13,161 bases of DNA from Clostridiales bacterium. Its GTDB lineage: Bacteria; Bacillota; Clostridia; Oscillospirales; Oscillospiraceae. Position numbers and translations under genes: made by a program. Location: the NCBI GenBank assembly GCA_029098065.1, contig JAQXNP010000128.1:1-13161 (forward strand), in the 5' to 3' direction. How positions within the stretch are numbered: the stretch's first letter is position 1; each line of letters begins with the position of its first letter. The notes beneath the pieces are model-generated. The model was given only the letters and a program-made list of their open reading frames with translations, was not told the origin of the DNA and searched no databases. Positions 1-13,161 of this stretch are shown here, piece after piece.

Positions 1-816
1 GCCAGCCTGTCCGCCACCAACGTGGCCGCCGCCGAGAAGGAGGCCAGCCTGAAGGTCCTCAGCTATGAGACCTCCACCTACGTCGCCATGGGCTGCAACC
101 TGTCCACTCCCGCCCTGCAGGATAAAAACGTCCGTCAGGCCATGAGCTATGCCATCGACCGGCAGGCCATCATCGATGTGGTGTTCGCCGGCCAGGCCGT
201 GCCCTGCTCCATGATGCCTCCCGCCATGGGCCACTGGTCCCTGGATGTGTCCGATATGGACCTTTACAAGACCGACGTGGAGAAGGCCAAGCAACTCATG
301 GAGGCTGCCGGCTACAATGAAAACAACCGCCTGACCCTGAAGGTGGCCGCCGGCCTGCTGGACTACATCCGTCAGACCGCCGTAGTCCTCCAGCAGCAGC
401 TGAGCGAGATTTACATCGACCTGGAGATCACCAACCTGGAGTCCGGCGAGTACGTGGACATCTGGGGCAAGATGAGCACTCCCGAGGCCGGCTTTGACCT
501 GATGGTGGTCAGCGACGGCGCCGGCACCGATCCCAACCGCGCCATCTCCTTCTTCTTCGGCACGGGCTCCGGCGCCAACTTTACCGGCTTCTCCAACGAG
601 CGCGTGGATGAGCTCTGCGCTCTGGGCATCGCCACCACCGATGAGGCCAAGCGCGAGGAGTACTACAATGAGGCTCAGGAAATCTGCATCGATGACTGCT
701 CCAAGCTCTGCATCGCCAGCCCCATGAGCTACATTGTCACCTCCGCCAGCGTGGAGGGCTTCCATCCCTCTGCCGCCGACGCCAGCAACCTCCGCGATAC
801 CTATCTGGCTCAGTAA
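1..816 (+). CDS. Peptide ABC transporter substrate-binding protein (family 5), 3' part
   Basis: This is the C-terminal 271 residues of an extracytoplasmic solute-binding protein of family 5 (DppA/OppA type), which captures peptides or similar solutes outside the membrane and hands them to the permeases encoded next. The reading frame is open from base 1, so the gene starts upstream of the window and the signal peptide is not visible; the in-frame GTG at 22 is internal. The family is shown by the stretch NVRQAMSYAIDRQAII (about residues 43-58 of the visible part), by the following pocket-lining segment with MMPPAMGHW, and by the late FTGFSNERVDEL segment typical of the second lobe. The stop at 814-816 is followed at once by a hairpin terminator. 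This fits the usual excess of binding protein over membrane components. Ligand specificity cannot be read from the sequence. Confidence 0.93.
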   Translation, partial: ASLSATNVAAAEKEASLKVLSYETSTYVAMGCNLSTPALQDKNVRQAMSYAIDRQAIIDVVFAGQAVPCSMMPPAMGHWSLDVSDMDLYKTDVEKAKQLMEAAGYNENNRLTLKVAAGLLDYIRQTAVVLQQQLSEIYIDLEITNLESGEYVDIWGKMSTPEAGFDLMVVSDGAGTDPNRAISFFFGTGSGANFTGFSNERVDELCALGIATTDEAKREEYYNEAQEICIDDCSKLCIASPMSYIVTSASVEGFHPSAADASNLRDTYLAQ

Positions 817-825
817 ATTTTCCGT

Positions 826-873
826 GGGGATGGGACAGCGGACAGCTTCCACTGTCCCATCCCCCTGTTTTAT
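826..873 (+). terminator. Hairpin terminator or attenuator after the binding-protein gene
   Basis: A perfect 13-bp inverted repeat (826-838 with 852-864, arm GGGGATGGGACAG) starts 9 bases after the stop codon. The inner bases 840-842 and 848-850 can add three more pairs. It is followed by CTGTTTTAT, a short and interrupted T-run. It looks like a leaky intrinsic terminator that would allow partial readthrough into the permease genes and so leave more binding protein than permease. Readthrough is inferred, as no other promoter is evident before 968. Confidence 0.8.
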
Positions 874-877
874 CCTT

Positions 878-932
878 GAGCGCTGACAATTTCCAATCGG
901 CCGGAACCGCCGGTTGGGCATTGTCAGCACTC
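878..932 (+). repeat. Long imperfect inverted repeat in the spacer before the permease
   Basis: Arms 878-901 and 909-932 can fold into a stem of about 24 positions with a 7-base loop. The outer 13 positions (GAGCGCTGACAAT against ATTGTCAGCACTC) contain one C-A mismatch, and the inner part has one C-T mismatch and G-T wobbles. No T-run follows, so it is not a normal intrinsic terminator. It could stabilise the upstream mRNA end, be a processing site or a dispersed palindromic element, or bind a regulator. The spacer 817-967 otherwise holds no recognisable gene or convincing promoter. Confidence 0.6.
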
Positions 933-946
933 AAACGCACTATTCC

Positions 947-951
947 GGGAG
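947..951 (+). promoter_or_regulatory. Weak, distant ribosome binding site of the first permease
   Basis: GGGAG at 947-951 is the only Shine-Dalgarno-like sequence before the ATG at 968, and it lies 16 bases away, far beyond the usual 5-9. All other genes in this window have strong sites at normal spacing. Initiation of this permease is therefore probably weak, unless the upstream hairpin or another element helps. Confidence 0.35.
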
Positions 952-967
952 TGTGACATCTTATACC

Positions 968-1911
968 ATGAAAAATTACATTATCCGCCGTGTTCTTCAG
1001 GTTATCCCCGTTTTATTCGGCATCAGCGTTCTGATCTTCGCTGTGATGAAAATGATCCCGGGCGACGTAATCTCGGGCATTCTGGGCATCGGGCCACCCC
1101 TGAGCTCCGTGCCCAGCTGGCCGCCAAATACGGTCTGGACCGCCCCTATATCGTCCAGTATCTGGACTGGATCGGCGGGGTGCTCCGCGGGGACTTTGGG
1201 GAGTCCATCCGGACCTCCGCCCCCATCCTGCCTGAAATTCTCAGCCGTTTCAAGGTTACCGCCGAGCTGACCATTCTGGCCGCCATTATCTCCTGGATCA
1301 TTGCCATTCCCCTGGGCGTGCTGGCCGCGGTAAAGCGCAACTCCTGGGTGGACCGCTTTGTCCGGGTGTTCGCTCTGCTGGGTGTCTCTGTTCCCGGCTT
1401 TGCTCTGTCCATTCTTCTGATCCTGGTCCTGTCCCTCTGCTTCCACTACTTCTCCCCTCTGGGCTATGTGGGATTCTTTGAAGATCCCATCCGCAATCTG
1501 GAGATCATGATCCTCCCCGCCTTTATCCTGGGAATCAGCATCTCGGGTTCGGTGATGCGTATGACCCGATCCTCCGTACTGGAAGTGCTCCGTCAGGACT
1601 TCATCAAGACCGTTCGGGCCAAGGGAGCCAGTGAGCGGGTCGCTATTTTCAAACACGCTCTGCGCAACGCCCTCATCCCCATCATCACTCTGATCGGTAT
1701 GCAGATCGGCTCTCTGCTGGGCGGCGCGGTCATTGTGGAACAGATTTTCTCTCTCCCCGGTTTGGGACAAATGACGCTCACCGGCATCAATCAGCGGGAT
1801 TACCCTGTCGTCCAGGGCTGTGTTCTTTTTATTGCCTTCATCTACGTGCTGGTCAACCTGCTGACCGATCTGCTGTACGCCTATATTGATCCCCGAATCT
1901 CTTACGACTGA
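968..1911 (+). pseudogene. Dpp-type ABC transporter permease 1, interrupted by a frameshift
   Basis: The product would be an inner-membrane permease of the DppB/OppB family, half of the transmembrane channel for the peptide importer. Translation from ATG 968 gives the classic start MKNYIIRRVLQVIPVLFGIS and a first membrane helix, then MIPGDVISGILGIG, and then loses the family pattern. The continuation, ATPELRAQLAAKYGLDRPY, is in the next frame from 1093. A missing base at 1091-1093 (GGG where GGGG is expected) restores 314 residues, a normal length. The rest has several membrane helices, the EAA-type loop facing the ATPases (around KTVRAKGASERVAIFKHALR) and a normal C-terminus. Read as given, the first frame stops at 1270 after 100 residues. 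Because the rest of the operon is intact, a sequencing or assembly error is as likely as a real mutation. The stop overlaps the ribosome binding site of the next gene. Confidence 0.88.
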
Positions 1912-1922
1912 GGTGACGCGCA

Positions 1923-2759
1923 ATGAGAAAACTGTTACAGACTCTGCGGGAACTCTGGCGCGACCCCATGGGCAAAATCAGTATCATAGGCATACTTCTG
2001 ATTATCCTGATGGCTATTTTCGCCCCCCAGCTCTCTCATTACGGTCCCGAGAAAATGGTCGGAATCCCCAAATCAGCCCCTAACGCTCAATTCTGGTTCG
2101 GTACCGATAACTACGGCCGGGATATTTTCAGCCGTATCATTTACGGCGCCAGGGTCTCTCTTCAGGTCGGCATCATCGCCGTTGGAATCGGCGCCACTGC
2201 CGGTTATATTCTGGGACTCATTGCCGGCTACTTTGAGGGCTGGGTAGACCGTGTCATCATGTGCATCATGGACATTCTCTTCGCGTTTCCCTCGATCCTG
2301 CTGGCCATTCTGATCTCTACCGTCCTGGGCCGGGGACTGGTCCCCACCATGGTGGCCATCGGTATCGTCAATATCCCGGTTTTTGCCCGGACGGTGCGGG
2401 CCTCCGTCATCTCGGCCAAGAGCCTGGAGTACGTGGAAAATGCCCGCAGCGTGGGTGTGAAGACCTGGCCCATTCTGATCCGGCATATCTCTCCCAACGT
2501 GGTGGCCCCCTTCACCGTTCAGGCTACGCTGGCCCTCTCCAGCGCCATCCTTACGGAAGCTTCCATGAGCTTTCTGGGCCTGGGCATTCAGCCCCCTGAC
2601 CCCTCCTGGGGTTCCATGCTCTCCGAGTCCCGGGCCTTTATGGAGCAGGCCCCCTGGATGGCCATCTTCCCCGCGCTCTTCATCATCGTCACCATCCTGC
2701 TTTTCAATATTCTGGGCGACAGCCTCCGCGACGTGCTGGATCCCAAACTCAAGCTGTAA
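1923..2759 (+). CDS. Dpp-type ABC transporter permease 2
   Basis: A 278-residue inner-membrane permease of the DppC/OppC family, the partner of the preceding permease in the translocation channel. The N-terminus has the short cytoplasmic segment LRELWRDPMGKIS and the first membrane helix (about 20-36) typical of the family. WFGTDNYGRDIFSRIIYGAR (about 58-77) is a hallmark of OppC-type proteins. Further hydrophobic helices follow. The EAA loop that contacts the ATPase lies at about 170-195 (YVENARSVGVKTWPILIRHI). The C-terminus has the usual SMSFLGLGIQPPDPSWG and GDSLRDVLDPKLK motifs. The ATG at 1923 is preceded by GAGGTGA at 1910-1916, which overlaps the stop of the previous gene, so the two are translated in close succession. 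Length and motifs are normal. Confidence 0.95.
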   Translation: MRKLLQTLRELWRDPMGKISIIGILLIILMAIFAPQLSHYGPEKMVGIPKSAPNAQFWFGTDNYGRDIFSRIIYGARVSLQVGIIAVGIGATAGYILGLIAGYFEGWVDRVIMCIMDILFAFPSILLAILISTVLGRGLVPTMVAIGIVNIPVFARTVRASVISAKSLEYVENARSVGVKTWPILIRHISPNVVAPFTVQATLALSSAILTEASMSFLGLGIQPPDPSWGSMLSESRAFMEQAPWMAIFPALFIIVTILLFNILGDSLRDVLDPKLKL

Positions 2760-2776
2760 CGGGAGGAATCGAGGAT

Positions 2777-3784
2777 ATGGAACACCTGTTAGAGATCCGG
2801 AATCTCTCCATCGAACTCCCTCAGGGGAAACGTCAGCCGCCTGTAAAGCTGGTGGAAGGCGTGGATCTGGACATTGACAAGAAACAGAACTTCGGCATCG
2901 TAGGCGAATCGGGCTGCGGGAAGAGCATCACCTGTTCGTCCATCATGGGCCTGCTCTCCTATCCCCTGACATTGGGCAAAGGCAGCAGCATCCGCTTTCA
3001 GCAGGAAAATGGAAATGAGGTGGAGATCACTTCCCTTCCCTCTTCCGAGCTGCGGAAGATCCGGGGCAAGGAAATCTCCATGATCTTCCAGGAGCCCATG
3101 ACCGCTCTGGATCCCACGTCGACCATCGTGGCCCAGATCGAAGAGACCCTCCGCTTTCACACCAGCCTCACCAAAGCAGAAATGCACGATGCCGCTTTGG
3201 CGATGCTGAAAAAAGTCAATATTCCCCGGCCGGACCAAATCCTGCTGGATTATCCCCACCACCTCTCCGGCGGCATGCTCCAGCGGGTGATGATCGCCAT
3301 CGCCCTCATCAACAACCCCAGGCTTCTGATTGCCGATGAGCCGACCACCGCTTTGGACGTGACGATTCAGGCCCAGATTCTGGATCTGATGAACGAGCTG
3401 CGGGAGAGCTTTGACACCTCGGTCATCATGATTACCCACGACTTGGGCGTGATCGCCGAAACCTGCGAGAAAGTCGCTGTCTTCTACGCCGGTCAGGTGG
3501 TGGAGCAGGCCAGTGTCGAGGAAATTTTTCATGCCACTGCCCACCCCTACACCGCCGGACTTCTGAAGTCTGTCACCTCTCTGGGCGGCGCGGAAAAAAA
3601 GCTTTACACCATCCAGGGCACGGTACCGACAGCAGGCCATTTCGGTTCCGGCTGCCGTTTTGCCGACCGCTGCGACCACTGCACCTCCCGCTGCCGGGAG
3701 GCCGCCCCCGCCTTGACTGAGATCGCCCCCGGGCACCTGTGCCGCTGCTGGCTCCATGCCCCGGAAAAGGAGGCCGCCCAATGA
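2777..3784 (+). CDS. Dpp-type ABC transporter ATP-binding protein (DppD type)
   Basis: A 335-residue cytoplasmic ATPase that, paired with the next gene product, drives peptide import. Visible motifs are Walker A GESGCGKS (43-50), Q-loop FQEP (104-107), ABC signature LSGGMLQR (163-170), Walker B LLIADEPT (183-190) and the switch histidine in MITHDLG (218-224). The C-terminal oligopeptide-transporter domain contains HPYTAGLL followed by a cysteine cluster (C293, C299, C302, C306, C322, C324). In DppD/OppD-type proteins such C-terminal cysteines are thought to bind an iron-sulfur cluster. The start ATG at 2777 has GGGAGGA at 2761-2767. The stop overlaps the start of the next ATPase gene by four bases (ATGA), the usual arrangement for coupled translation of a heterodimer. 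Substrate specificity is set by the binding protein and is not known. Confidence 0.95.
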
Positions 3785-4755
3785 GTGAGCACACTGTTTT
3801 GCTGGATGTTCAGCATCTTCAGACTTATTTCCCCATCAAGGGCGGCGTGGTCCATAAAACAGTGGGCCACGTTCACGCCGTGGAGGACGTCTCCTTTCAG
3901 ATCCGGGAACAGGAGACCTTCGGCCTGGTCGGTGAGTCGGGCTGCGGCAAATCCACCACCGGCCGCACCATTCTGCGGCTCATCGAACCTACCGGCGGCA
4001 AAATCTTCTTTGACGGACAGGACCTGTGCCAGCTGGATCGGGAAGCCATGCGCCAGAAACGGCGGGATATGCAGCTGGTCTTTCAGGACCCCTATTCTTC
4101 CCTGAATCCCCGGATGACCGTCCGGCGTCTTCTGGAGGAACCTCTTCAGACCCACTTCACCCTCACTCAGAAGGAAATGAATGAGCAGGTCCTCTGGATC
4201 GCCCACGCGGTGGGTCTGTCTCCCGAGCAGTTGGAACGCTATCCCCATCAGTTTTCCGGCGGCCAGCGCCAGCGGGTGAGCATCGCCCGGGCTCTCATTA
4301 CAAAGCCCCGCTTTGTGGTGGCGGACGAACCGGTTTCCGCTCTGGATGTGTCCATCCAGGCCCAGATCCTGAACCTGCTCTTTTCGCTTCAGGAAGAGCT
4401 GAAGCTGTCCTATCTCTTCATTTCCCATGATCTGAACGTGGTCCGGCATATCAGCAATCGGATCGGCGTTATGTATCTGGGCCGTATCATGGAACAGGGC
4501 AATACCGAATCGGTCTACCGCAATCCGCTCCACCCCTATACCCGAGCTCTCCTCTCCGCCATCCCCAAGCTGGACCCGCTGGAAGAAAAGCACCGCATTC
4601 AATTGGAGGGGGATGTGCCCAGCCCGGCCAATCCCCCCAAGGGATGTCCTTTCCACGACCGGTGTTCCAAATGCATGGAGATCTGCAAACAGTCCGTTCC
4701 GGAAGAAAAAGAACTGGAGCCCGGCCACCGTGTCTCCTGCCATCTCTACGATTGA
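3781..4755 (+). CDS. Dpp-type ABC transporter ATP-binding protein (DppF type)
   Basis: A 324-residue cytoplasmic ATPase, the second nucleotide-binding subunit of the peptide importer. Motifs are Walker A GESGCGKS (51-58), Q-loop FQDPYSSLNPRMTV (101-114), signature FSGGQRQR (158-165), Walker B VVADEP (179-184), and switch histidine ISHDLNVVRH (214-223). The start FPIKGG and the C-terminal HPYTRALLSAIP are typical of DppF/OppF. The C-terminal cysteines C289, C295, C298, C302 and C320 mirror those of its partner. I chose ATG 3781 instead of an upstream in-frame codon at 3739 because it has AAGGAGG at 3768-3774 and overlaps the previous stop by four bases, and because family members begin just before the LLDVQHL strand. 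It is the last transporter gene; two enzyme genes follow. Confidence 0.95.
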   Translation: MSEHTVLLDVQHLQTYFPIKGGVVHKTVGHVHAVEDVSFQIREQETFGLVGESGCGKSTTGRTILRLIEPTGGKIFFDGQDLCQLDREAMRQKRRDMQLVFQDPYSSLNPRMTVRRLLEEPLQTHFTLTQKEMNEQVLWIAHAVGLSPEQLERYPHQFSGGQRQRVSIARALITKPRFVVADEPVSALDVSIQAQILNLLFSLQEELKLSYLFISHDLNVVRHISNRIGVMYLGRIMEQGNTESVYRNPLHPYTRALLSAIPKLDPLEEKHRIQLEGDVPSPANPPKGCPFHDRCSKCMEICKQSVPEEKELEPGHRVSCHLYD

Positions 4756-4792
4756 TCCGTGAGGCGGACGGGCAAAAAGGAAGTTATTTGAT

Positions 4793-5518
4793 ATGCGTCT
4801 CATCTCGGTTTCCGACTATTCCGCCCTCAGCACCGCGGCGGCAGATCTGATCGCCGCCCAGATCCTTCTGAAACCCGCCTGTGTTCTGGGGCTGGCCACC
4901 GGCTCCTCTCCCGTGGGAGCTTACCGGGAGCTGGTAAAACTCCATCAGGCCGGCCGGCTCAGCTTTTCCCGGGTGACCACTTTCAATCTGGATGAATATC
5001 GTGGACTGCCCGACGATCACCCCCAGAGCTATCACACATTTATGAACCAGAATCTTTTCCGGGCTGTGGACCTGCCCTCCGGAGCCGCCCATCTGCTGGA
5101 CGGCATGGACCCGGACGCCGCGCGTCAGTGCGCAGGCTATGAAGCCGCCATTCACGCCGCCGGCGGCATCGACCTTCAGCTGCTGGGGATGGGCCACAAC
5201 GGCCATATCGGCTTCAACGAACCCGCCGATTTCTTCCCCCTGGACACCCACTGCGTGGATCTGACCCCCTCCACCCGGCAGGCCAATCAGCGGTTCTTCC
5301 CCTCTCTGGACGATGTGCCCCGGCAGGCCTACACCATGGGCATCCGCACCATCCTGTCCGCCCGCCGCATCCTCATCCTGGTACACGGCGCCGACAAGGC
5401 GGAGATTCTGAAAACGGCCTTCTATGGCCCGGTGACCCCCCAGGTCCCCGCTTCCATTCTTCAGCTCCACTCCGACGTGACCCTCGTCGCCGACGAGGCT
5501 GCCCTCAGCGCCCTGTGA
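4793..5518 (+). CDS. nagB: Glucosamine-6-phosphate deaminase (NagB)
   Basis: Cytoplasmic enzyme that converts glucosamine 6-phosphate into fructose 6-phosphate and ammonia, the step that feeds amino sugars into glycolysis. Its 241 residues match the short Firmicutes form of the family. Visible are the phosphate-binding loop GLATGSSPVGAY (33-44), FNLDEY with the catalytic aspartate D67, and the active-site segment MGHNGHIGFNEP (133-144) with H138 and E143. The position of the E. coli catalytic D141 is asparagine here (N136). Other Firmicutes deaminases, as I recall them, also have NGHIGFNEP, so this is not taken as inactivating. MGIRTIL and LQLHSDVTL are also family segments. ATG 4793 has AAAAAGGAAG upstream, and 37 bases separate it from the transporter. 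Its place in this operon suggests that the imported compound carries or yields an amino sugar (inference). A related sugar-phosphate isomerase role is possible. Confidence 0.92.
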   Translation: MRLISVSDYSALSTAAADLIAAQILLKPACVLGLATGSSPVGAYRELVKLHQAGRLSFSRVTTFNLDEYRGLPDDHPQSYHTFMNQNLFRAVDLPSGAAHLLDGMDPDAARQCAGYEAAIHAAGGIDLQLLGMGHNGHIGFNEPADFFPLDTHCVDLTPSTRQANQRFFPSLDDVPRQAYTMGIRTILSARRILILVHGADKAEILKTAFYGPVTPQVPASILQLHSDVTLVADEAALSAL

Positions 5519-5540
5519 CAAAAAAGGAAAGGTCGATCGT

Positions 5541-6200
5541 ATGCCCCGCATTCTGATTTCCGGCTCCAGAGAGGGCTGTGACAACTACATCAACGCCGTC
5601 CGCGCCGCCGGCGGCGAGCCGTTCGGCAGCAACCTGCCCCCGGGGGACGGAAGCTATGAACCTCTACGCCGCACCCGCGGGGATCAGATGGATCCCGCCT
5701 ATTTCAACCAGCCCAACACCGCCTCCCACGGCATCGATCTGGAGCGGGATGAAGTCGAACTGGCTCTGGCCAGACTCTACCTGAGTCTGGGAAAGCCCAT
5801 CCTGGGCATCTGCCGGGGGCACCAGCTCCTCAATGTGGCGCTGGGTGGCGATCTCCGCCAGGACATCGGCGATCCCCTTCACCTCTTCCACACCCGGGGG
5901 GAGCTGCCTCAGGACCGTGTCCATCCGGTCCACGCCGCGCCGGGCAGCTTTCTGGAGGTCCTCTACGGCCCCGTGTTCCCCGTGAACAGCTCCCACCATC
6001 AGGTGGTGGAGCGGCTGGGAGAAGGCCTGCGGGCCGCCGCCTGGTCGGAGAGCGGCCTTGTGGAGGCCCTGGAACATGAGTCGCTGCCTGTCCGCACGGT
6101 TCAGTGGCATCCGGAGCGGATGAGCTACGGCCTCCGCCGCCCCGATACGGTGGACGGCGCTCCCATCTTTCAGTGGCTGGTGGCCGCCGCGGGTAAGTAA
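5541..6200 (+). CDS. Gamma-glutamyl hydrolase-like class I amidotransferase (peptidase C26)
   Basis: A 219-residue cytoplasmic protein of the peptidase C26 / PuuD-like family, which hydrolyses gamma-glutamyl amide bonds, for example in gamma-glutamyl-GABA or folate polyglutamates. The nucleophile is C91 in GICRGHQ (89-95), and the other catalytic residues are H190 and E192 in WHPE. NSSHHQ (149-154) is also characteristic. It lies 22 bases after nagB with AAAGGAAAGG before the ATG, so it is co-transcribed, and its stop is followed by the shared terminator. Oddity: at about residues 40-50, where the family usually has a hydrophobic strand and a glycine-rich loop of the form DGLLLxGGGD, this protein reads EPLRRTRGDQM. 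It is also shorter than E. coli PuuD (about 250). That may be divergence or a local sequence fault. The true substrate is unknown; gamma-D-glutamyl peptides from cell wall would fit the neighbours. Confidence 0.85.
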   Translation: MPRILISGSREGCDNYINAVRAAGGEPFGSNLPPGDGSYEPLRRTRGDQMDPAYFNQPNTASHGIDLERDEVELALARLYLSLGKPILGICRGHQLLNVALGGDLRQDIGDPLHLFHTRGELPQDRVHPVHAAPGSFLEVLYGPVFPVNSSHHQVVERLGEGLRAAAWSESGLVEALEHESLPVRTVQWHPERMSYGLRRPDTVDGAPIFQWLVAAAGK

Positions 6201-6292: not shown

Positions 6293-7003
6293 TCATCCCT
6301 GACCGTAGTAGGCGTCCTTTCCGTGCTTGCGCAGGTAGTGCTTGTCCAGAAGCTCCCGCTGCATGCTCCCCCGGCCGGGCTCCAGCATCAGGGCGTGGAA
6401 ATCCATGAAGGCCACCTCTTCCAGCACCACCGCGTTGTGCACCGCCTCCATGGGGTCCTTCCCCCAGGTAAAGGGGCCGTGGCTGTTCACCAGCACGCCC
6501 GGCACCGCCATGGGCGGGATCTTCTGTTCCGAAAAGGTCTCCACAATGACCTTTCCGGTGTTCTTTTCGTAGCTGTCCCGGTCCTCCGGGGTCCCGATCT
6601 CCTCCGCCGTCATGGCCCTTGTGCAGGGGACCTCCCCGTAAAAATAGTCCCCCTGAGTAGTACCCATAGCCGGGATGCCCCGGCCCGCCTGAGCGAAGCT
6701 GGCCGCCCAGCGGGAGTGGGTGTGGACGATGCCGCCCACCTCGTTCCAGGCCCGGTACAGCTCCAGGTGGGTGGCCGTGTCGCTGGAGGGTTTGTATTTC
6801 CCCTCCACGATCCTTCCGTCCAGATCCACCACCACCATGTCCTCCGGGGCCATGCCCTCATAGGGTACGCCGGAGGGCTTGATCACCACCAGTCCGGAGC
6901 TCCGGTCGATCCCTGAGACATTTCCCCAGGTGAAGGTCACCAGATCATACCGGGGCAGCAGGAGATTAGCCTCGCAGACCTGTTGTTTCAGCTCTTCCAG
7001 CAT
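6293..7003 (-). CDS. araD: L-ribulose-5-phosphate 4-epimerase (AraD family)
   Basis: Cytoplasmic zinc enzyme that converts L-ribulose 5-phosphate to D-xylulose 5-phosphate, linking pentose catabolism to the pentose phosphate pathway. The 236 residues resemble E. coli AraD over the full length: WGNVSGID (26-33), KPSG (42-45), KPSSDT (71-76), the metal ligands in HTHS (H94, H96) and SHGPF (H175), the proton donor in GDYFYG (D119), and the C-terminal [16 protein letters not shown] with Y233. The start is ATG 7003, with GAGGAGGGG at 7011-7019; a longer reading to 7078 would overlap the previous gene and lacks family support. It is the last gene of the - strand operon, 14 bases after the glycohydrolase gene. 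Close relatives include UlaF and SgbE, which do the same reaction in L-ascorbate and L-xylulose pathways, so the actual sugar is not settled. The match to true epimerases is better than to RhaD or FucA aldolases. Confidence 0.93.
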
Positions 7004-7010
7004 GGGACTT

Positions 7011-7019
7011 CCCCTCCTC
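7011..7019 (-). promoter_or_regulatory. Ribosome binding site deciding the araD start
   Basis: Read on the - strand, GAGGAGGGG lies 7 bases before ATG 7003. It overlaps the stop codon (7018-7020) of the preceding glycohydrolase gene. It supports the short araD start over an upstream in-frame codon at 7078. Confidence 0.8.
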
Positions 7020-9111
7020 AAACCGTACCTGCAATATGGAACATGCCCCAGCGGCTCTCCCCGGCGGATTGGTGGCAAATCCCGGCCATTCCGTAGGCGA
7101 ACCGGCTGTCCTCCGCTGTCAGCAGGATCTGTCCGTCCACAGAGAGCGTCAGCCGCTCTCCGACCGCCTCCGCCTTCAGAATGTATTCCTCATCCTTCTC
7201 CCAGGGGAAGCCGGCGGAGGCCAGTTCGGTCCAGACGCCCGAATCATACCGGGCGATGACCGCCCGTCCCGGTCCATCCAGGCCCAGGGCGTAGAACCGG
7301 CGGCAGCCCTGCCCCCGCAGGAGGAGCATGGCGCCCGTGCCGGAGCCGGGGGTCAGCCATCCCTTGACAACCTGGTCCCGCATATAGTAGTTCCCGGTAA
7401 AGGCCTGACCCTCTCCCTCCGTGCGGAGGACCAGCATCCCGTCCTCCAGGGCGCCGTCCGCGTCATTGAAGGAGAAGGGGGTGACCTGCTCAAACTCCAC
7501 CCGCTGGATGGCCGGATCAATGGTGTAATCCATGGGACCGGACACCGTGATGTCATCAATATAGACCTTGCCGTAGGTCCAGGGCTTCACCGCCGGATCA
7601 ATAGCAATGGTCCAGCCCACATCGTGGACCTGATCCCCTGTCAGTTCCGGCACAGCAAAAGCGATCTCCGTCCACTCCCCCTCCGGAAGCACCACCGGCG
7701 GCAATTCCATCCGCTGTCCCCCCATGGCTGTGGTCAGATAGGGGGTCACCGTGATGGCGGCCTCCGCCGTCTGTTCGCTGCGCATCCAGCAGCTGATCCG
7801 CTGGCCGGGGCAGACCCGGGGGGAGAACACCGGACTATACCGCTCGTCGCTGAAGTCGGAACGGACATAGCAGCCCTTGAAAAAGAGATCCGCCGGGGTG
7901 GGGACTTTGCCGTCGATCATCATCTCCAGGCACCGGCGGCCCGTGTGGGCCTTTCCTTCCACGTTCCGCAGCTCATGGGCGGCGTGGTCGGAGAGCTCCA
8001 GGCTGTGGGTGGAGCCGGGCAGTTCGAAGTCCATCAGCATCTCACCGGGCCTGGCCCGCCGCACCCAGCCGGGAAGCTCCTCCCCCCGCAGCGAGCAGGC
8101 CAGGGCCGCCAGTTCCTTGGCGAACGCCGCCGAATCCAGCATATTGAGATAACCCGAGGCGCTGGAGAGAACGACCCCGTCGTTGATGGGAGCCCGGTAG
8201 CGCCGGGGCACCCCCTCCAGCCCGTGCAGGACGCCGGTGATGGAGCCCACACTGGAGGCGTTGCAGTCGGTATCAAAGCCGCACATGACCGCGATCTCGA
8301 TACACCGGCCCAGCTCTCCGCCGCCGTACAGAAGGGCCAGCGCGCAGATCCCGCCGTTGGGAACGATGTGACAGTAGCCCGGGTATTTGTCCGCCCCCCA
8401 CTCCCGGTCCACATAGTCCCGGCAGGCCCGGAAATCCTCCGGGTGGGCGGCGTGGAAGGCCCGCACTCCGTCCACCACCCTCCGGTAGTCGCAGTCGGCG
8501 GGGATCACCGTCAGAGCGGTGTCGAGGATCTCATCCACCGTGGAACAGGTAAAGGCGGCGGCGATGGCGGCGGCCATGAAGGCCGCGCCGTGGAGCCCCT
8601 CCCCGTCATGGGAGACACTGGCCGCCCGCCGGGCGAACTCAGCCGCCCGCTCCGGATCACCGGGATTGATAAAGCCCCAGGTGTCGATGAAAATCTGGCC
8701 TCCGATCTGCTCGGCGGCCACCCGGCCGTTTTGGGCGATGCTCCCGGACTCCGGGGCCTTGATCCCCCGCTTCAGGTTCATATAGGCCCGGTGTTCGGTG
8801 GACATGTCCTCTCCGCCCCACCAGAACATTCCCCGGCCCTTCCGGGTGTAGTTGAGCCAGGTCTCTCCCGCGTCCTCCGCGGTGAAATCAGGGCCGCAGT
8901 CGGTCAGGCTGCGCAGGAAAATCACCGGACCGTTCACATCGTCGTCGGCGGCATAGTGCCTGTACTCCCGGACGTAATCCCGGATATCGCCGAAATACTC
9001 CTTCAGCCGGTCATAGGTCCAATAGGGGGACTCCACCGGGGCCCCCAGACGCATTCCGGCGTCCATGCCCAGAAATCCGGCGTAAATTTTTTCAATGGTC
9101 TCGTCGCGCAC
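7018..9111 (-). CDS. ADP-ribosylglycohydrolase-family protein fused to C-terminal beta-sandwich domains
   Basis: A 697-residue protein of unknown substrate. Residues 1 to about 345 form an ADP-ribosylglycohydrolase (DraG/ARH) domain: [16 protein letters not shown] (12-27), the metal-binding acidic run DDDV (56-59, usually DDT), SHDGEG (168-172 region) and [15 protein letters not shown] (277-291), where family members usually have GGDTDTNA. The metal-binding acids are all present. The C-terminal half looks like two beta-sandwich regions. Residues about 355-525 resemble a carbohydrate-binding-module fold ending in [11 protein letters not shown], and residues about 535-697 resemble a laminin-G/concanavalin-like domain ([21 protein letters not shown]). 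No signal peptide or membrane helix is visible, so it should be cytoplasmic. The start is GTG 9111, with GGAGAG at 9119-9124. The family cleaves N-ribosyl bonds on proteins or small molecules; here, beside a nucleoside hydrolase and sugar enzymes, a small glycoside or ribosyl conjugate is more likely (inference). Confidence 0.87.
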
Positions 9112-9129
9112 GCGGCATCTCTCCTTTTT

Positions 9130-9756
9130 TCAGGCAAACAGCTCCACAGCGGGGCCGTGGAGCCCCACAAAGGCACCGGCCTCCGCCTCCGGCGTACCGG
9201 GGCTGGCAATGACCCACTTGTTCCGCCCCAGCAGAAGGCGGGCCTCCCCCACGGCGGGGACCTGAGGGCTGGCCAGGTTGGTGCCCCGGGGCAGGACGCA
9301 GGCCATGCGGAACCCCTTTCCCCGCCCCACCCCGCAGGGGGCGTAGTGAAGGGTGGTGGCATAGAGTTCCACCGCCGTTCCCGCCGGCACCAAGAAGGCC
9401 CTGACCCGGCCGGTGTCCAGCCGGTACTCCTCCAGTTCGGTCTGGAGGGCCAGCAGCAGGATCACATCATCGGCGGGGATGTCGATCTCGCTGGAGCGGT
9501 GATACTCCAGGCAGGTCAGTTTTGAATTGTACCCGTTGCAGAAGCCGATCTCGATGTCCAGCCCGCCGAAGCCCTGATCCCGCAGCGCCTCCGCGGCGGG
9601 GAGTTCCTCCAGGGCGGGCCAGGAGGGTTCATAGCAGGTCCCCGCCTCGGGCATGGGGGTATCCCGCAGAACGGAGAGAAAATCGGACAGGCCGAAGCCC
9701 TCCGCCGCCCTGCCGTAAGGGGCGAAGCGGGGGTCGCTGATGGGAATGATCTCCAT
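9130..9756 (-). CDS. DUF4867 family protein, cupin-like, function unknown
   Basis: A 208-residue cytoplasmic protein that I recognise as a member of the DUF4867 family, found mostly in Firmicutes and without an assigned activity. The conserved core is IEIGFCNGYNSKLTCLEYHR (68-87) with SSEIDIPADDVILLL after it, then FLVPAGTAVELYATTLHYAPC (121-141) and VLPRGTN (154-160). The pattern of H86, E90, E130 and H137 spread over two beta-rich segments, with PAGTAVE resembling a second cupin motif, suggests a cupin-like metal site such as those of sugar isomerases or lyases. This is inference. The ATG at 9756 has AGGAGGAG upstream. It lies 36 bases after the alcohol dehydrogenase gene and 18 before the glycohydrolase gene, so it is part of the sugar operon. 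A role in isomerising or opening a sugar intermediate, or in sensing one, would fit. Confidence 0.82.
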   Translation of the reverse strand: MEIIPISDPRFAPYGRAAEGFGLSDFLSVLRDTPMPEAGTCYEPSWPALEELPAAEALRDQGFGGLDIEIGFCNGYNSKLTCLEYHRSSEIDIPADDVILLLALQTELEEYRLDTGRVRAFLVPAGTAVELYATTLHYAPCGVGRGKGFRMACVLPRGTNLASPQVPAVGEARLLLGRNKWVIASPGTPEAEAGAFVGLHGPAVELFA

Positions 9757-9792
9757 AGGCTCCTCCTTATCATTTGAAACCGGGCGGCGGAC

Positions 9793-10953
9793 TCAAAGGG
9801 CCATCCGCAGGATATTCACCACATCCTCCCGGGTGAGCGGCTTATAGCTCCAGCAGCTCAGGTCGGTGAGGTCGGCGATACGGTCGATGTCGGCCTCCCC
9901 CACGCCCAGCTCGGCCAGAGTGGCAGGGGCTCCCAGCTCTCTGAAAAACGCCTTGACCCGGCGGATGCCCTCGACGGCCAGCTCATCCTGGCTCTTTCCC
10001 GCCGGATCCACCTCCCACACCCGCTGGGCAAAGCGGGCAAACTTGGCGGGGGCGCAGGAGCGCACATACTCCAGATAGTTGGGATGGACCACCGCCAGAC
10101 CGGCGCCGTGGGCCACGTCGAAGAGAGCGGAAATAGGGTGCTCGATGCAGTGGCTGGCCCAGTCCGTCTTTTTGCCGTTGTTCAGCATCCCGCACAGGGC
10201 CACGCTGCTGGTCCACATGAGATCGGCCCGGGCATCGTAATCCGTGGGGTCGGCCATGGCGGCCCGGGCGGCCCGGATCAGGGCCCGTAAAAGTCCCTCC
10301 GCCAGATAGTCGGTGACGTTATCCTCATCGGGAGGTGAAAAGTAGAGCTCGAAGATATGGGACATGGTGTCCACGATGCCGTTGGCCATCTGATTTTTGG
10401 GCAGGGTGAACGTGAGGGTGGGATCCAGAATGGAAAACCTGGGATAAATCAGGGGGCTGTCATAGTTGTTCTTCTCGCTGGTGGCCCAGTTGGTGATCAC
10501 AGCGGACATATCCATCTCGCTTCCCGTGGCGGGGATGGTGAGGATGGTCCCCAGCGGGATGGCGTCGGCCGCCGGCTCCCCGTTGATGAAGAAGGTCTGC
10601 CAGAAGTCCCTGTCCGTCTTTGCCCCCACAGCGATGGCCTTGCAGCAGTCAATGACGCTGCCGCCCCCCACCGCCAGAAGGAAGTCGATGTTCTCCCGCC
10701 TGCACAGCTCAATGCCCTCATAAACCTTTTCCGTCCGGGGGTTGGGCATGACGCCGGGGAGCTCGAAGACTGTCTTCCCCGCCTCCCGCAGCTGGGACAG
10801 CACCCGGTCATAGAGGCCGGTGCGCTTGATGCTCCCACCGCCGTAGACCAGCAGGATTCTGGGGCCGTAAGGGGCCACCGCCTCTTTCAGCTGATTGACC
10901 TGATCTTTGCCAAAGTAGATCCTGACCGGATTGTAATAGTGAAAATCGTACAT
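9793..10953 (-). CDS. Iron-containing alcohol dehydrogenase (butanol/YqhD type)
   Basis: A 386-residue cytoplasmic oxidoreductase that most likely reduces an aldehyde with NAD(P)H. Family features are the N-terminal FHYYNPVRIYFG (4-15), the nucleotide-binding segments YGGGSIKRTGLYD (37-49) and GGGSVIDCCKAIA (96-108), TIPATGSEMD (139-148), and the metal ligands D195 and H199 in NGIVDTMSH, H268 in DWASHCIEH and H282 in DVAHGAG. These match the YqhD/BDH branch. The start at ATG 10953 has AGGAGGAG at 10957-10964; an upstream in-frame start at 11004 would overlap the nucleoside hydrolase gene. It lies between the nucleoside hydrolase and DUF4867 genes. In a deoxysugar pathway the substrate could be lactaldehyde, giving 1,2-propanediol, a step done by FucO in E. 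coli. Glycolaldehyde or acetaldehyde are alternatives; the sequence does not decide. Confidence 0.92.
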   Translation of the reverse strand: MYDFHYYNPVRIYFGKDQVNQLKEAVAPYGPRILLVYGGGSIKRTGLYDRVLSQLREAGKTVFELPGVMPNPRTEKVYEGIELCRRENIDFLLAVGGGSVIDCCKAIAVGAKTDRDFWQTFFINGEPAADAIPLGTILTIPATGSEMDMSAVITNWATSEKNNYDSPLIYPRFSILDPTLTFTLPKNQMANGIVDTMSHIFELYFSPPDEDNVTDYLAEGLLRALIRAARAAMADPTDYDARADLMWTSSVALCGMLNNGKKTDWASHCIEHPISALFDVAHGAGLAVVHPNYLEYVRSCAPAKFARFAQRVWEVDPAGKSQDELAVEGIRRVKAFFRELGAPATLAELGVGEADIDRIADLTDLSCWSYKPLTREDVVNILRMAL

Positions 10954-10981
10954 ATTCTCCTCCTGAATGTCTTGAAAACGA

Positions 10982-11920
10982 TCAACCCGCACCCAACAGG
11001 GCAAAGAGGCGCCGTTTGTATTCCGCCGCGTCGATCTCGGGGCAGACGATGCAGTTGGCCTCTCCGTTCCGGTCCATATAAAACCGGCCCCGGTCCGCGC
11101 CGCTCCGAAGCTCCACCGAGCAGCGCGCCGAAAAGGTCCCCCGCATGATCTCCGGATAGAGGACAGCGGTCATCAGCATACTGTCGATGATGCCCAGAGT
11201 GTCTCTTCCATAGCGTCTCTTCTGATAGTCCCTCAGGGAACGGACGCACCGGGCGCAGAACGCCCCGGCCCTGTCTCCGCAGCCGGCCAGCCGCTCCAGT
11301 TCCTCCGGGGTGATCTCGGTGTCTCCCCGGGAGGTGTCCCAGGTGACCCAGAGCGTCTCCAGCCCCGAATCCAGCACGATGGCCGCCGCCTCCGGATCGG
11401 TATAGACGTTGTACTCCGCCGCCGGGGTCATGTTGCCCACTCCCCGGGCCGCGCCGCCCAGGATCCAGACCCGTTTGACCCATTGGGCCAGCCGGGGCTC
11501 CTTCAGCACCGCCATGGCCACATTGGTCAGGGGCCCGCAGGTGGCGATCTCCAGCTCACCGGGCCGCTCCCGGGCCAGGTCAATGATGGCGTCCATGGCA
11601 TGCCGGTCCCCCACCGGCCGTTCCGGCGCGGGAAGATCCATCTCCCCCAGCCCGTCGGAACCGTGGACATCAGCGGCGTAGAAAGCCGTCTTCCGCAAAA
11701 GGGGGCGCTCCATCCCCCGGAAGACCGGGGGGCAGGAACGCCCTGCCGCGTCTTCGGCCAGCAGGGCGTTCTTCACACACAGTTCCAGAGGCAGGTTTCC
11801 GCATACCACGGTCACAGCCTCCACCCGGACCACATCCGTGGCCCGGAGGGCCTCCACGATGGCCCACACGTCATCGGAACCGGTGTCCGTATCCACGATG
11901 AGACGGCGGGGCGCGCTCAC
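10982..11920 (-). CDS. Inosine/uridine-preferring nucleoside hydrolase family protein
   Basis: A 312-residue cytoplasmic hydrolase of the IUNH family, which cleaves the N-glycosidic bond of ribonucleosides to free ribose and base. The calcium- and ribose-binding signature DTDTGSDD (10-17) has threonine in place of the usual proline. N41 in VVCGN, CGPLTN (128-133), ILGGA (153-157), and N163, E169 and N171 in GNMTPAAEYNVYTDPEAA support an intact ribose site. Near the C-terminus the usual His-Asp pair is Ile-Asp (I245-D246 in LGIIDSML). The Asp calcium ligand is kept, but the histidine that in several members protonates the leaving base is absent. The start is GTG 11920, overlapping the rhaA stop (GTGA), with GGAGGGG inside the rhaA end. 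Substrates may be pyrimidine-like or non-standard ribosides. A glycoside other than a nucleoside is possible given the neighbours. Confidence 0.9.
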   Translation of the reverse strand: MSAPRRLIVDTDTGSDDVWAIVEALRATDVVRVEAVTVVCGNLPLELCVKNALLAEDAAGRSCPPVFRGMERPLLRKTAFYAADVHGSDGLGEMDLPAPERPVGDRHAMDAIIDLARERPGELEIATCGPLTNVAMAVLKEPRLAQWVKRVWILGGAARGVGNMTPAAEYNVYTDPEAAAIVLDSGLETLWVTWDTSRGDTEITPEELERLAGCGDRAGAFCARCVRSLRDYQKRRYGRDTLGIIDSMLMTAVLYPEIMRGTFSARCSVELRSGADRGRFYMDRNGEANCIVCPEIDAAEYKRRLFALLGAG

Positions 11921-13137
11921 GCCAGCCCCTCCATCCAGTCCGCGCCCTTCACCTGGTGGCGGGCGCAGTATTCCTCAAAGACGATGCCGGCGGGCAGGAG
12001 CTTGAACTCCTCCAGCAGCGCCAGACGGCGGGTCAGATCCCCGCTGTGCTCGGCGTCCATCAGGGCCTCGGTGGGTTCCAGCAGGGCCATGAGGAGGGCC
12101 TTTTTCACACTTCTCGCGCCGATCACCGAAGCGGCGACACGGTTGATGCTGGCGTCAAAGAAATCCAGCCCCAGGTGGACCTTGTCAAAGGCGCCGCAGC
12201 GCTTGATCTCCTGCATGATGGTGATAATATCCTCGCAGATGATGGGCACATGGTCGCTGTCCCAGCGGACCGCCCGGGACAGGTGCATCATGATCTCCTG
12301 TCCGAAGGTAAAGTAGGAGGACAGCTTGGCGGCCACGCTCTCGGTGGGATGGTAGTGGCCGATGTCCATGCAGACAATGGCCTTCCCGGTGGTAAGGGCA
12401 TAGTTGGTGTAAAACTCATGGGAACCGGCGGTGTAGCTCTCCACCCCCAGGCCGAAGACCTTGCCCTCCACCGAGTCCACATTGCACTTCCTGTCGATGG
12501 GCTCGGCAAAGATCCGGTCCAGGGACTCAATGAGCCGCTGACGGGGGCCCAGGGTATCCACGCAGGTGTCCTTGAAGCCATCGGGGATCCAGTGGTTGGT
12601 GACACAGGTCTCTCCCAGAGATTTGCCCAGGTAGGCTCCGATCTCCCGGCAGGCGATGCCGTGCTCCACCCAGAAGTCCCTTATCCCCCTGTCGGGGCTG
12701 GCCAGGGTCCAGCCGCTGTCCGCCATGGGATGGGAGAAGTAGGTGGGATTGAAATCCAGTCCGATGCCCTTTTCCCCGGCGTAGTCCACCCAGCGGGCAA
12801 AATGTTCCGGCCTGAGCTGGTTGCGGGGGACCTTTTTCCCGTCCGTCAGGGCATAGATGCTGTGGAGCGCCAGATGCTTGGCCCCCGGCACCAGGGAGAG
12901 CATCCTGTCCAGATTGGTGAAATACTCCTCCACGCTCCGGGGTTTTCCCGGGGCGTTTCCGGTGGCGGCGATGCCGCCGGTGAGCTTGGCGTCGAAGTCC
13001 TCAAACCCGGTGAGGTCATCCAGCTGCCAGCAGTTGATGGAGATGGGGATCTCGTCCATCCGGCGGAGGGCTTCCTCCGTGTCCACTCCCCAGCCGGCAT
13101 AAATCTCACGGGCGGCCTCATAATGCTTGCTTGACAT
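11917..13137 (-). CDS. rhaA: L-rhamnose isomerase (RhaA)
   Basis: Cytoplasmic metal-dependent isomerase converting L-rhamnose to L-rhamnulose; members also act on L-lyxose, D-allose and other sugars. The 406 residues match the family length (E. coli 419). Visible motifs are YAGWGVDTEEAL (13-24), IPISINCWQLDD (30-41), LHSIYA (91-96), NPTYFSHP (130-137), NHWIPDG (181-187), and the metal-site segments VESY (232-235), CMDIGHYHPTE (256-266), WDSDHVPIICEDI (292-304) and LGLDFFDASINR (322-333). They correspond to the E, D, H and D ligands of E. coli RhaA. ATG 13137 has AGGAGGGG at 13143-13150. It is the first gene of the operon in this window, and only 24 bases of upstream sequence are present, so the promoter and any rhaB kinase are not visible. 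No rhamnulose-1-phosphate aldolase follows, so the sugar handled here may not be rhamnose. Confidence 0.95.
   Translation of the reverse strand: MSSKHYEAAREIYAGWGVDTEEALRRMDEIPISINCWQLDDLTGFEDFDAKLTGGIAATGNAPGKPRSVEEYFTNLDRMLSLVPGAKHLALHSIYALTDGKKVPRNQLRPEHFARWVDYAGEKGIGLDFNPTYFSHPMADSGWTLASPDRGIRDFWVEHGIACREIGAYLGKSLGETCVTNHWIPDGFKDTCVDTLGPRQRLIESLDRIFAEPIDRKCNVDSVEGKVFGLGVESYTAGSHEFYTNYALTTGKAIVCMDIGHYHPTESVAAKLSSYFTFGQEIMMHLSRAVRWDSDHVPIICEDIITIMQEIKRCGAFDKVHLGLDFFDASINRVAASVIGARSVKKALLMALLEPTEALMDAEHSGDLTRRLALLEEFKLLPAGIVFEEYCARHQVKGADWMEGLA
11926..11932 (-). promoter_or_regulatory. Ribosome binding site within the rhaA end, for the nucleoside hydrolase
   Basis: On the - strand, GGAGGGG lies 5 bases before the GTG at 11920, inside the last codons of rhaA. 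With the GTGA overlap, it supports the GTG start and coupled translation of the two genes. Confidence 0.7.
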
Positions 13138-13161
13138 GGTCTCCCCTCCTGTTACGGTTCC

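Follow-up and report, generated by a model that had tools for sequence, protein, structure and literature searches.

A conserved Oscillospiraceae gene cluster with RhaA, a nucleoside hydrolase and an ADP-ribosylglycohydrolase fusion as a candidate locus for L-lyxose use

Which sugar would a bacterium process with an operon that joins a RhaA-family aldose isomerase to a nucleoside hydrolase (NH), an iron-containing alcohol dehydrogenase (Fe-ADH), a DUF4867 cupin, an ADP-ribosylglycohydrolase (ADPRGH) fusion protein and an AraD-family epimerase? In this work, we analyzed such an operon on contig C128 (JAQXNP010000128.1) of a Clostridiales bacterium of the Oscillospiraceae; the window is this entire contig of 13,161 bases, part of a 1.71-Mb draft genome that is 89.7% complete. 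Gene families were assigned by Pfam and NCBIfam profile matches, which confirm on the - strand, and in the same place, the six genes that the original prediction had named from the letters alone (Table 1). They form one tight operon, with a 4-base overlap between RhaA and NH and gaps of 28, 36, 18 and 14 bases between the others; the starts of the ADH (10953) and AraD (7003) genes were corrected from the sequence. Taken together, our results point towards a locus that may import a nucleoside-like furanoside and feed the freed sugar, most likely L-lyxose, to D-xylulose-5-phosphate, a reading on which we are evenly balanced. The predicted sugar half of this route is well supported by enzyme family, residues and co-occurrence.

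Conservation of the cluster and its upstream half

Gene order, conservation, enzyme families and key residues can be read directly from the sequences. A scan of named genomes with DUF4867, limited in reach by short exact patterns, gave three relatives, two of them with the cluster: 'uncultured Oscillospiraceae bacterium' (locus L016; genome G445, identical to G580) and 'uncultured Oscillibacter sp.' (L017; G444, identical to G741). Both have the order RhaA-NH-ADH-DUF4867-fusion, with identities to the window proteins of 83% for RhaA, 68-70% for NH, 68-71% for ADH, 65% for DUF4867 and 69-73% for the fusion, whose gene in L016 is interrupted by the contig end; the third (L018) has a lone DUF4867 gene (39%). 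An NH search in 400 genomes of the same family returned matches at E <= 1e-30 in 59, seven of them at 55% identity or more (our own, G444, G445, G742, G566, G757 and G558) and the next at 38%, and at E <= 1e-70 our own genome stood alone among 394 genomes of the order and 391 of the class, samples that overlap one another and that of the family. Anaerotruncus colihominis also has an NH (P0064), 62% identical to ours. The co-occurrence elsewhere on which the original prediction depended was found for a five-gene core, which lies in the same order in four of the seven NH-clade genomes, namely our own and three relatives (RhaA 81-83% identical across the three); one of these, G742, has a complete row from PotD to the fusion at 59-81% identity. 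RhaA (at least 58%), a LyxK-like kinase (at least 52%) and AraD (at least 58%) are all present in six of the seven genomes and all absent from G566, where the class II aldolase match is distant (34%).

NH adjoins RhaA in six of these seven genomes, under two unrelated transporters, which speaks against the unlikely alternative that the sugar enzymes act on free L-lyxose, or on another sugar yielding L-xylulose, while the two adjoining hydrolases and the ADH do something else. A second locus of G757 (L135 5610-10657) would fit this alternative, as it carries LacI, RhaA, an aldo/keto reductase (by eye) and a LyxK-like kinase, with no match to NH within the 20 kb analysed.

Since the window ends with its contig, the region past position 13161, where kinase, transporter and regulator genes were to be looked for, was sought on other contigs, and all three proved to be part of the locus. 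In our own genome, contig C203 (6,031 bases) encodes on one strand an FGGY kinase, UlaE (74% to L017) and LacI (63%), and on the other PotD (63%) and PotB (77%), the latter running off the contig end. In G444, 13 genes lie on one contig as AraD-FGGY-UlaE-LacI / PotD-PotB-PotC-PotA-RhaA-NH-ADH-DUF4867-fusion, and by synteny C203 would precede and neighbour C128. UlaE-FGGY-AraD in G445 and LacI-UlaE-FGGY in G742 lie on separate contigs, a short one in G445.

The PotD, PotB, PotC and PotA family matches of the transporter that precedes the five-gene core in L016 and L017 are weak to moderate and below cut-offs (PotD, NF007048, 76 bits vs 582). Among the residues that we take to be the polyamine contacts of PotD, T35Q, E36A/G, Y85N, E171D, W255Y and Q327L/I are changed in all four binding proteins, W34, Y37, W229, D257 and Y293 are retained, and D168 is kept in only two of the four. 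Judged by their sequences, these are PotD-like binding proteins without several of the polyamine contacts.

Table 1. Genes of the operon at the right-hand end of the window
Gene	Position	Strand	Profile match	Predicted role
RhaA-family aldose isomerase	11917..13137	-	PF06134 4.5e-166	L-lyxose to L-xylulose
Nucleoside hydrolase (NH)	10982..11920	-	PF01156 (IU_nuc_hydro) 1e-75	furanoside-bond cleavage
Iron-containing alcohol dehydrogenase (Fe-ADH)	9793..10953	-	PF00465 7.4e-46 + C-terminal domain	
DUF4867 (SftX/SqvB family) cupin	9130..9756	-	PF16161 2.4e-67	ring opening or mutarotation of freed sugar
ADP-ribosylglycohydrolase (ADPRGH) fusion	7018..9111	-	PF03747 1.3e-51, residues 12-304 of 697	second furanosidase
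AraD-family L-ribulose-5-phosphate 4-epimerase	6293..7003	-	Aldolase_II 8.6e-51	final step to D-xylulose-5-phosphate

Enzymes of the predicted sugar route

By family, RhaA, LyxK, UlaE and AraD are the four enzymes of the E. coli L-lyxose route, in which L-lyxose is converted successively to L-xylulose, L-xylulose-5-phosphate, L-ribulose-5-phosphate and D-xylulose-5-phosphate. It had been stated that no standard pathway uses this gene set, but the passages of PMC7982652 that deal with L-lyxose describe an E. coli pathway of four reactions that begins with a secondary activity of RhaA. The accompanying suggestion that L-lyxose, through L-xylulose, would reconcile RhaA with AraD is strongly supported, since both enzymes still required for this route, the kinase and the 3-epimerase, were found.

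The window RhaA is 50% identical to that of E. coli and scores just below both NCBIfam rhamnose isomerase cut-offs (570.6 vs 572 and 540.4 vs 584.95 bits). Its family and its near-threshold scores would suit L-rhamnose or rhamnoside catabolism, which we nevertheless regard as very improbable, given that UlaE and AraD act on pentulose-5-phosphates and that the incomplete draft genome holds no RhaB or RhaD candidate among its three FGGY kinases (glycerol-kinase-like by eye on C62, ribulokinase over NCBIfam cut-offs on C103, LyxK-like on C203) and two class II aldolase-family genes (the window AraD and a distant gene on C110, 31% to AraD). The original prediction had likewise seen neither enzyme in the window itself. 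When compared with E. coli kinases, the C203 kinase is nearest to LyxK (38% over 512 residues, 340 bits), followed by LsrK (174), XylB (119), FucK (101), RhaB (46) and AraB (46 bits), and LyxK likewise ranks first for the kinases of three relatives (L079, L107 and L106); the NCBIfam matches of the C203 kinase include no LyxK model. UlaE, the L-ribulose-5-phosphate 3-epimerase, is 56% identical to SgbU and exceeds two cut-offs (NF009689, 400.7 vs 200; TIGR00542, 378.2 vs 272.15).

The window AraD is over the cut-off of NF006047 (377.6 bits; 257), under that of TIGR00760 (374.3; 389.1), and 59-61% identical to E. coli AraD, UlaF and SgbE. In E. coli numbering, it retains Lys42, Ser44, Gly45, Ser74, Ser75, Asp76 and His95 as well as His97, Thr116, Asp120, Glu142, His171, His218 and Tyr229, with two altered site neighbours (His100 to Trp, His118 to Gln); FucA differs at Lys42, Ser44, Asp76, Thr116, Asp120, Glu142 and His218. 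With the roles that we assume for these residues, the protein keeps what distinguishes an epimerase from the aldolase FucA, and the earlier idea that the sugar is split finds no support. It is very improbable that, on the model of fucose/rhamnose or 5-deoxyribose catabolism, the kinase phosphorylates C1, with the class II aldolase-family protein cleaving the resulting sugar-1-phosphate and the ADH reducing the aldehyde so formed. Such a route would give the Fe-ADH a job, and FucO and YqhD reduce glycolaldehyde in engineered RhaA-RhaB-RhaD routes, as described in part of PMC6443609; but the protein is an AraD by NCBIfam, with Asp120, Thr116, Glu142 and His218 kept, RhaD is not seen among the class II aldolase genes of our own genome, UlaE would be left without a role, and the ADH is absent from the stretches of G558 and G757 that have NH, RhaA and kinase.

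Two further candidates were rejected. For a 3-keto-L-gulonate/ascorbate route, none of the nine OMP-decarboxylase-family places compared, spread over six genomes, matches SgbH/UlaD; for 5-deoxyribose salvage, the epimerase residues of AraD and the presumed 5'-OH contacts of NH are retained.

Hydrolases, accessory enzymes and the imported compound

In the preferred reading, the PotDBCA-like transporter would import the compound, NH would hydrolyse its C1 bond, and the ARH-type fusion would act on the opposite anomer or on an O-linked form. DUF4867 may then open or mutarotate the ring of the freed sugar, RhaA would convert L-lyxose to L-xylulose, and the kinase, UlaE and AraD would yield L-xylulose-5-phosphate, L-ribulose-5-phosphate and D-xylulose-5-phosphate in turn, with the Fe-ADH handling the aglycone or an aldehyde derived from it. 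The choice of L-lyxose, the glycoside and the steps given to the ADH and DUF4867 are inferred. G558 and G757 pair NH and RhaA, together with a LyxK-like kinase, with a different, nucleoside-type transporter (BMP/PnrA type in G558), which makes a nucleoside-like furanoside the probable substrate. Tentatively, it can be proposed that these bacteria eat natural L-lyxosyl (4'-epimeric) nucleoside-like compounds, which are not known to occur so far, that the NH clade and the ARH-CBM66 fusion cleave L-lyxofuranosides, and that the locus is a natural form, dedicated to L-lyxose, of the pathway found as a cryptic one in E. coli.

Among 120 relatives of NH, the residues that we take to form the metal and sugar site (RihB D11, D15, D16, N40, N158, E164, N166 and D240) are kept in all, RihB Pro12 is Thr in all, and His239, presumably the leaving-group histidine of RihB, is Ile in 110 and Val in 10. 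The ADPRGH fusion belongs by fold and family score to the ADP-ribosylglycohydrolases (ARH/DraG). It comprises this fold (about residues 1-345), a middle beta domain (about 350-520) and, at the C-terminus (about 530-697), a CBM66-like module that matches a levanase carbohydrate-binding module in sequence (1.3e-5); fold comparison of its AlphaFold2 model (pLDDT 85.8) supports the ARH fold and barely covers the middle domain.

Aligned to 9gyy, DUF4867 has in place the Glu-x-His...Glu and the His of the 2His-2Glu metal site described for that structure (PMC11968277, in part). In the parts of PMC11968277 and PMC9594981 that concern this family, its members accompany aldose isomerases and FGGY kinases, and ring opening or mutarotation is proposed; an NMR assay reported there did not detect it. 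In the cluster the isomerase partner is RhaA; the stretches around nine other DUF4867 matches contained no RhaA, NH, ADH or fusion match, three weak matches being left out. The Fe-ADH has PRK15138 (YqhD type) as nearest NCBIfam model, far below its cut-off (NF011717, 322.7 vs 645 bits). It accompanies the PotD-type transporter in five of five loci (our own, with the link to C203 taken from synteny, L016, L017, L104 and L105) and is lacking from the two BMP-type loci, and because of this distribution it probably acts on the non-sugar part of the imported compound.

Several observations weigh against the L-lyxose reading. Every function is assigned by homology, and we know of no natural L-lyxose nucleoside. 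All 120 NH relatives conserve the compared residues with which ribonucleoside hydrolases contact the sugar, among them those presumed to bind the 5'-OH; this fits D-ribose, while an L-lyxoside bears the 5'-OH carbon on the opposite face. D-Ribose is also what PfkB genes near distant fusions fit (four of seven loci, two over the ribokinase cut-off), and a ribokinase-like gene stands beside the G444 cluster (228.1 bits, cut-off 299.65). As for AraD, the window protein is nearer to the AraD beside an AraA homologue in G444 (L154 7354-8049; 73-75%) than to those of the G444 and G445 clusters (58-59%), it is the sole AraD found in its genome, which also has a ribulokinase, and in G742, G558 and G757 AraD lies apart from the cluster. 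For the first three of these reasons the window AraD may serve L-arabinose (too), and its identities suggest an exchange of AraD in our own cluster.

Ribonucleoside scavenging is a doubtful but possible alternative, in which NH and the fusion would free D-ribose, RhaA would isomerise it, D-ribulose-5-phosphate would come from the FGGY kinase, and UlaE and AraD would be redundant or for other sugars. The conserved ribose site of NH, the ribokinase-family genes near distant fusions and the BMP-type transporter of G558 agree with it, as does G566, where a PfkB kinase stands in for the RhaA set. However, the kinase is nearest to LyxK, UlaE, which is found in the loci of our own genome, G444, G445, G742 and G558, and AraD, present in all six RhaA genomes, would be pointless, and the characterised RhaA for which part of PMC10987364 gives data was least active on D-ribose among six sugars.

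The G566 locus (L104 2775-9799) reads PotD-PotB-PotC-PotA-NH-ADH-PfkB kinase, in a genome without RhaA or LyxK-like kinase matches. Long ARH fusions near ribokinase-family genes occur in three other genomes, at L058 3215-7868, L054 9116-12172 and L057 8581-11684, and also in L053, and are perhaps a riboside-cleaving family of their own.

Relation to known systems and neighbouring genes

The E. coli L-lyxose degradation (RhaA, LyxK, SgbU, SgbE) has four enzyme families in common with the cluster. Whereas its genes lie in two loci (rha and yia), those of G444 lie in one, which adds the hydrolases, the ADH, DUF4867 and an ABC transporter and is without SgbH. The ribose-scavenging (rbs) system of Bacteroides thetaiotaomicron also holds a nucleoside hydrolase and an ADP-ribosylglycohydrolase in one sugar locus, but with ribokinases in place of RhaA, a LyxK-like kinase, UlaE and AraD. 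The cluster NH shares the Asp, Asn and Glu of the metal and sugar site with the E. coli RihB/RihC group and departs from it at His239 and Pro12.

As in sulfoglycolytic clusters with SftX/SqvB (PMC11968277 and PMC9594981, in the parts cited above), DUF4867 lies beside an aldose isomerase. Sulfoglycolysis was a candidate on account of DUF4867 and was set aside, as, unlike in those clusters, the families assigned at the locus include no sulfosugar enzyme, no further search having been aimed at such enzymes. A literature search for nucleoside hydrolase together with rhamnose isomerase gave a single paper, apparently unrelated. What is new in the cluster is the way in which known enzyme families are arranged, around a route that is known but rarely used. 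A 1994 paper among the references of PMC6958661 has a title that describes the E. coli kinase gene as 'cryptic', and a 2011 survey, in the part that treats LyxK, confines it to a few groups of Gammaproteobacteria (PMC3245297). If the L-lyxose reading is true, Clostridia would have a locus dedicated to this sugar, outside that surveyed range, and the cluster would imply an undescribed source of L-lyxose, on which its interest rests. The orphan DUF4867 family gains a clear test substrate beside RhaA, and two hydrolase families of unusual make-up become candidates for assays.

Tandem ADPRGH-family genes lie beside a sugar-type transporter in L053 (1217-13901), which also has an AtuA-family gene, and in L052. 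On the + strand of the window, positions 1-6200 hold a truncated family-5 binding protein gene followed by genes resembling OppB, OppC, OppD and OppF, together with NagB (over the TIGR00502 cut-off) and a peptidase C26-like protein; these left-hand genes look like a separate unit running in the opposite direction.

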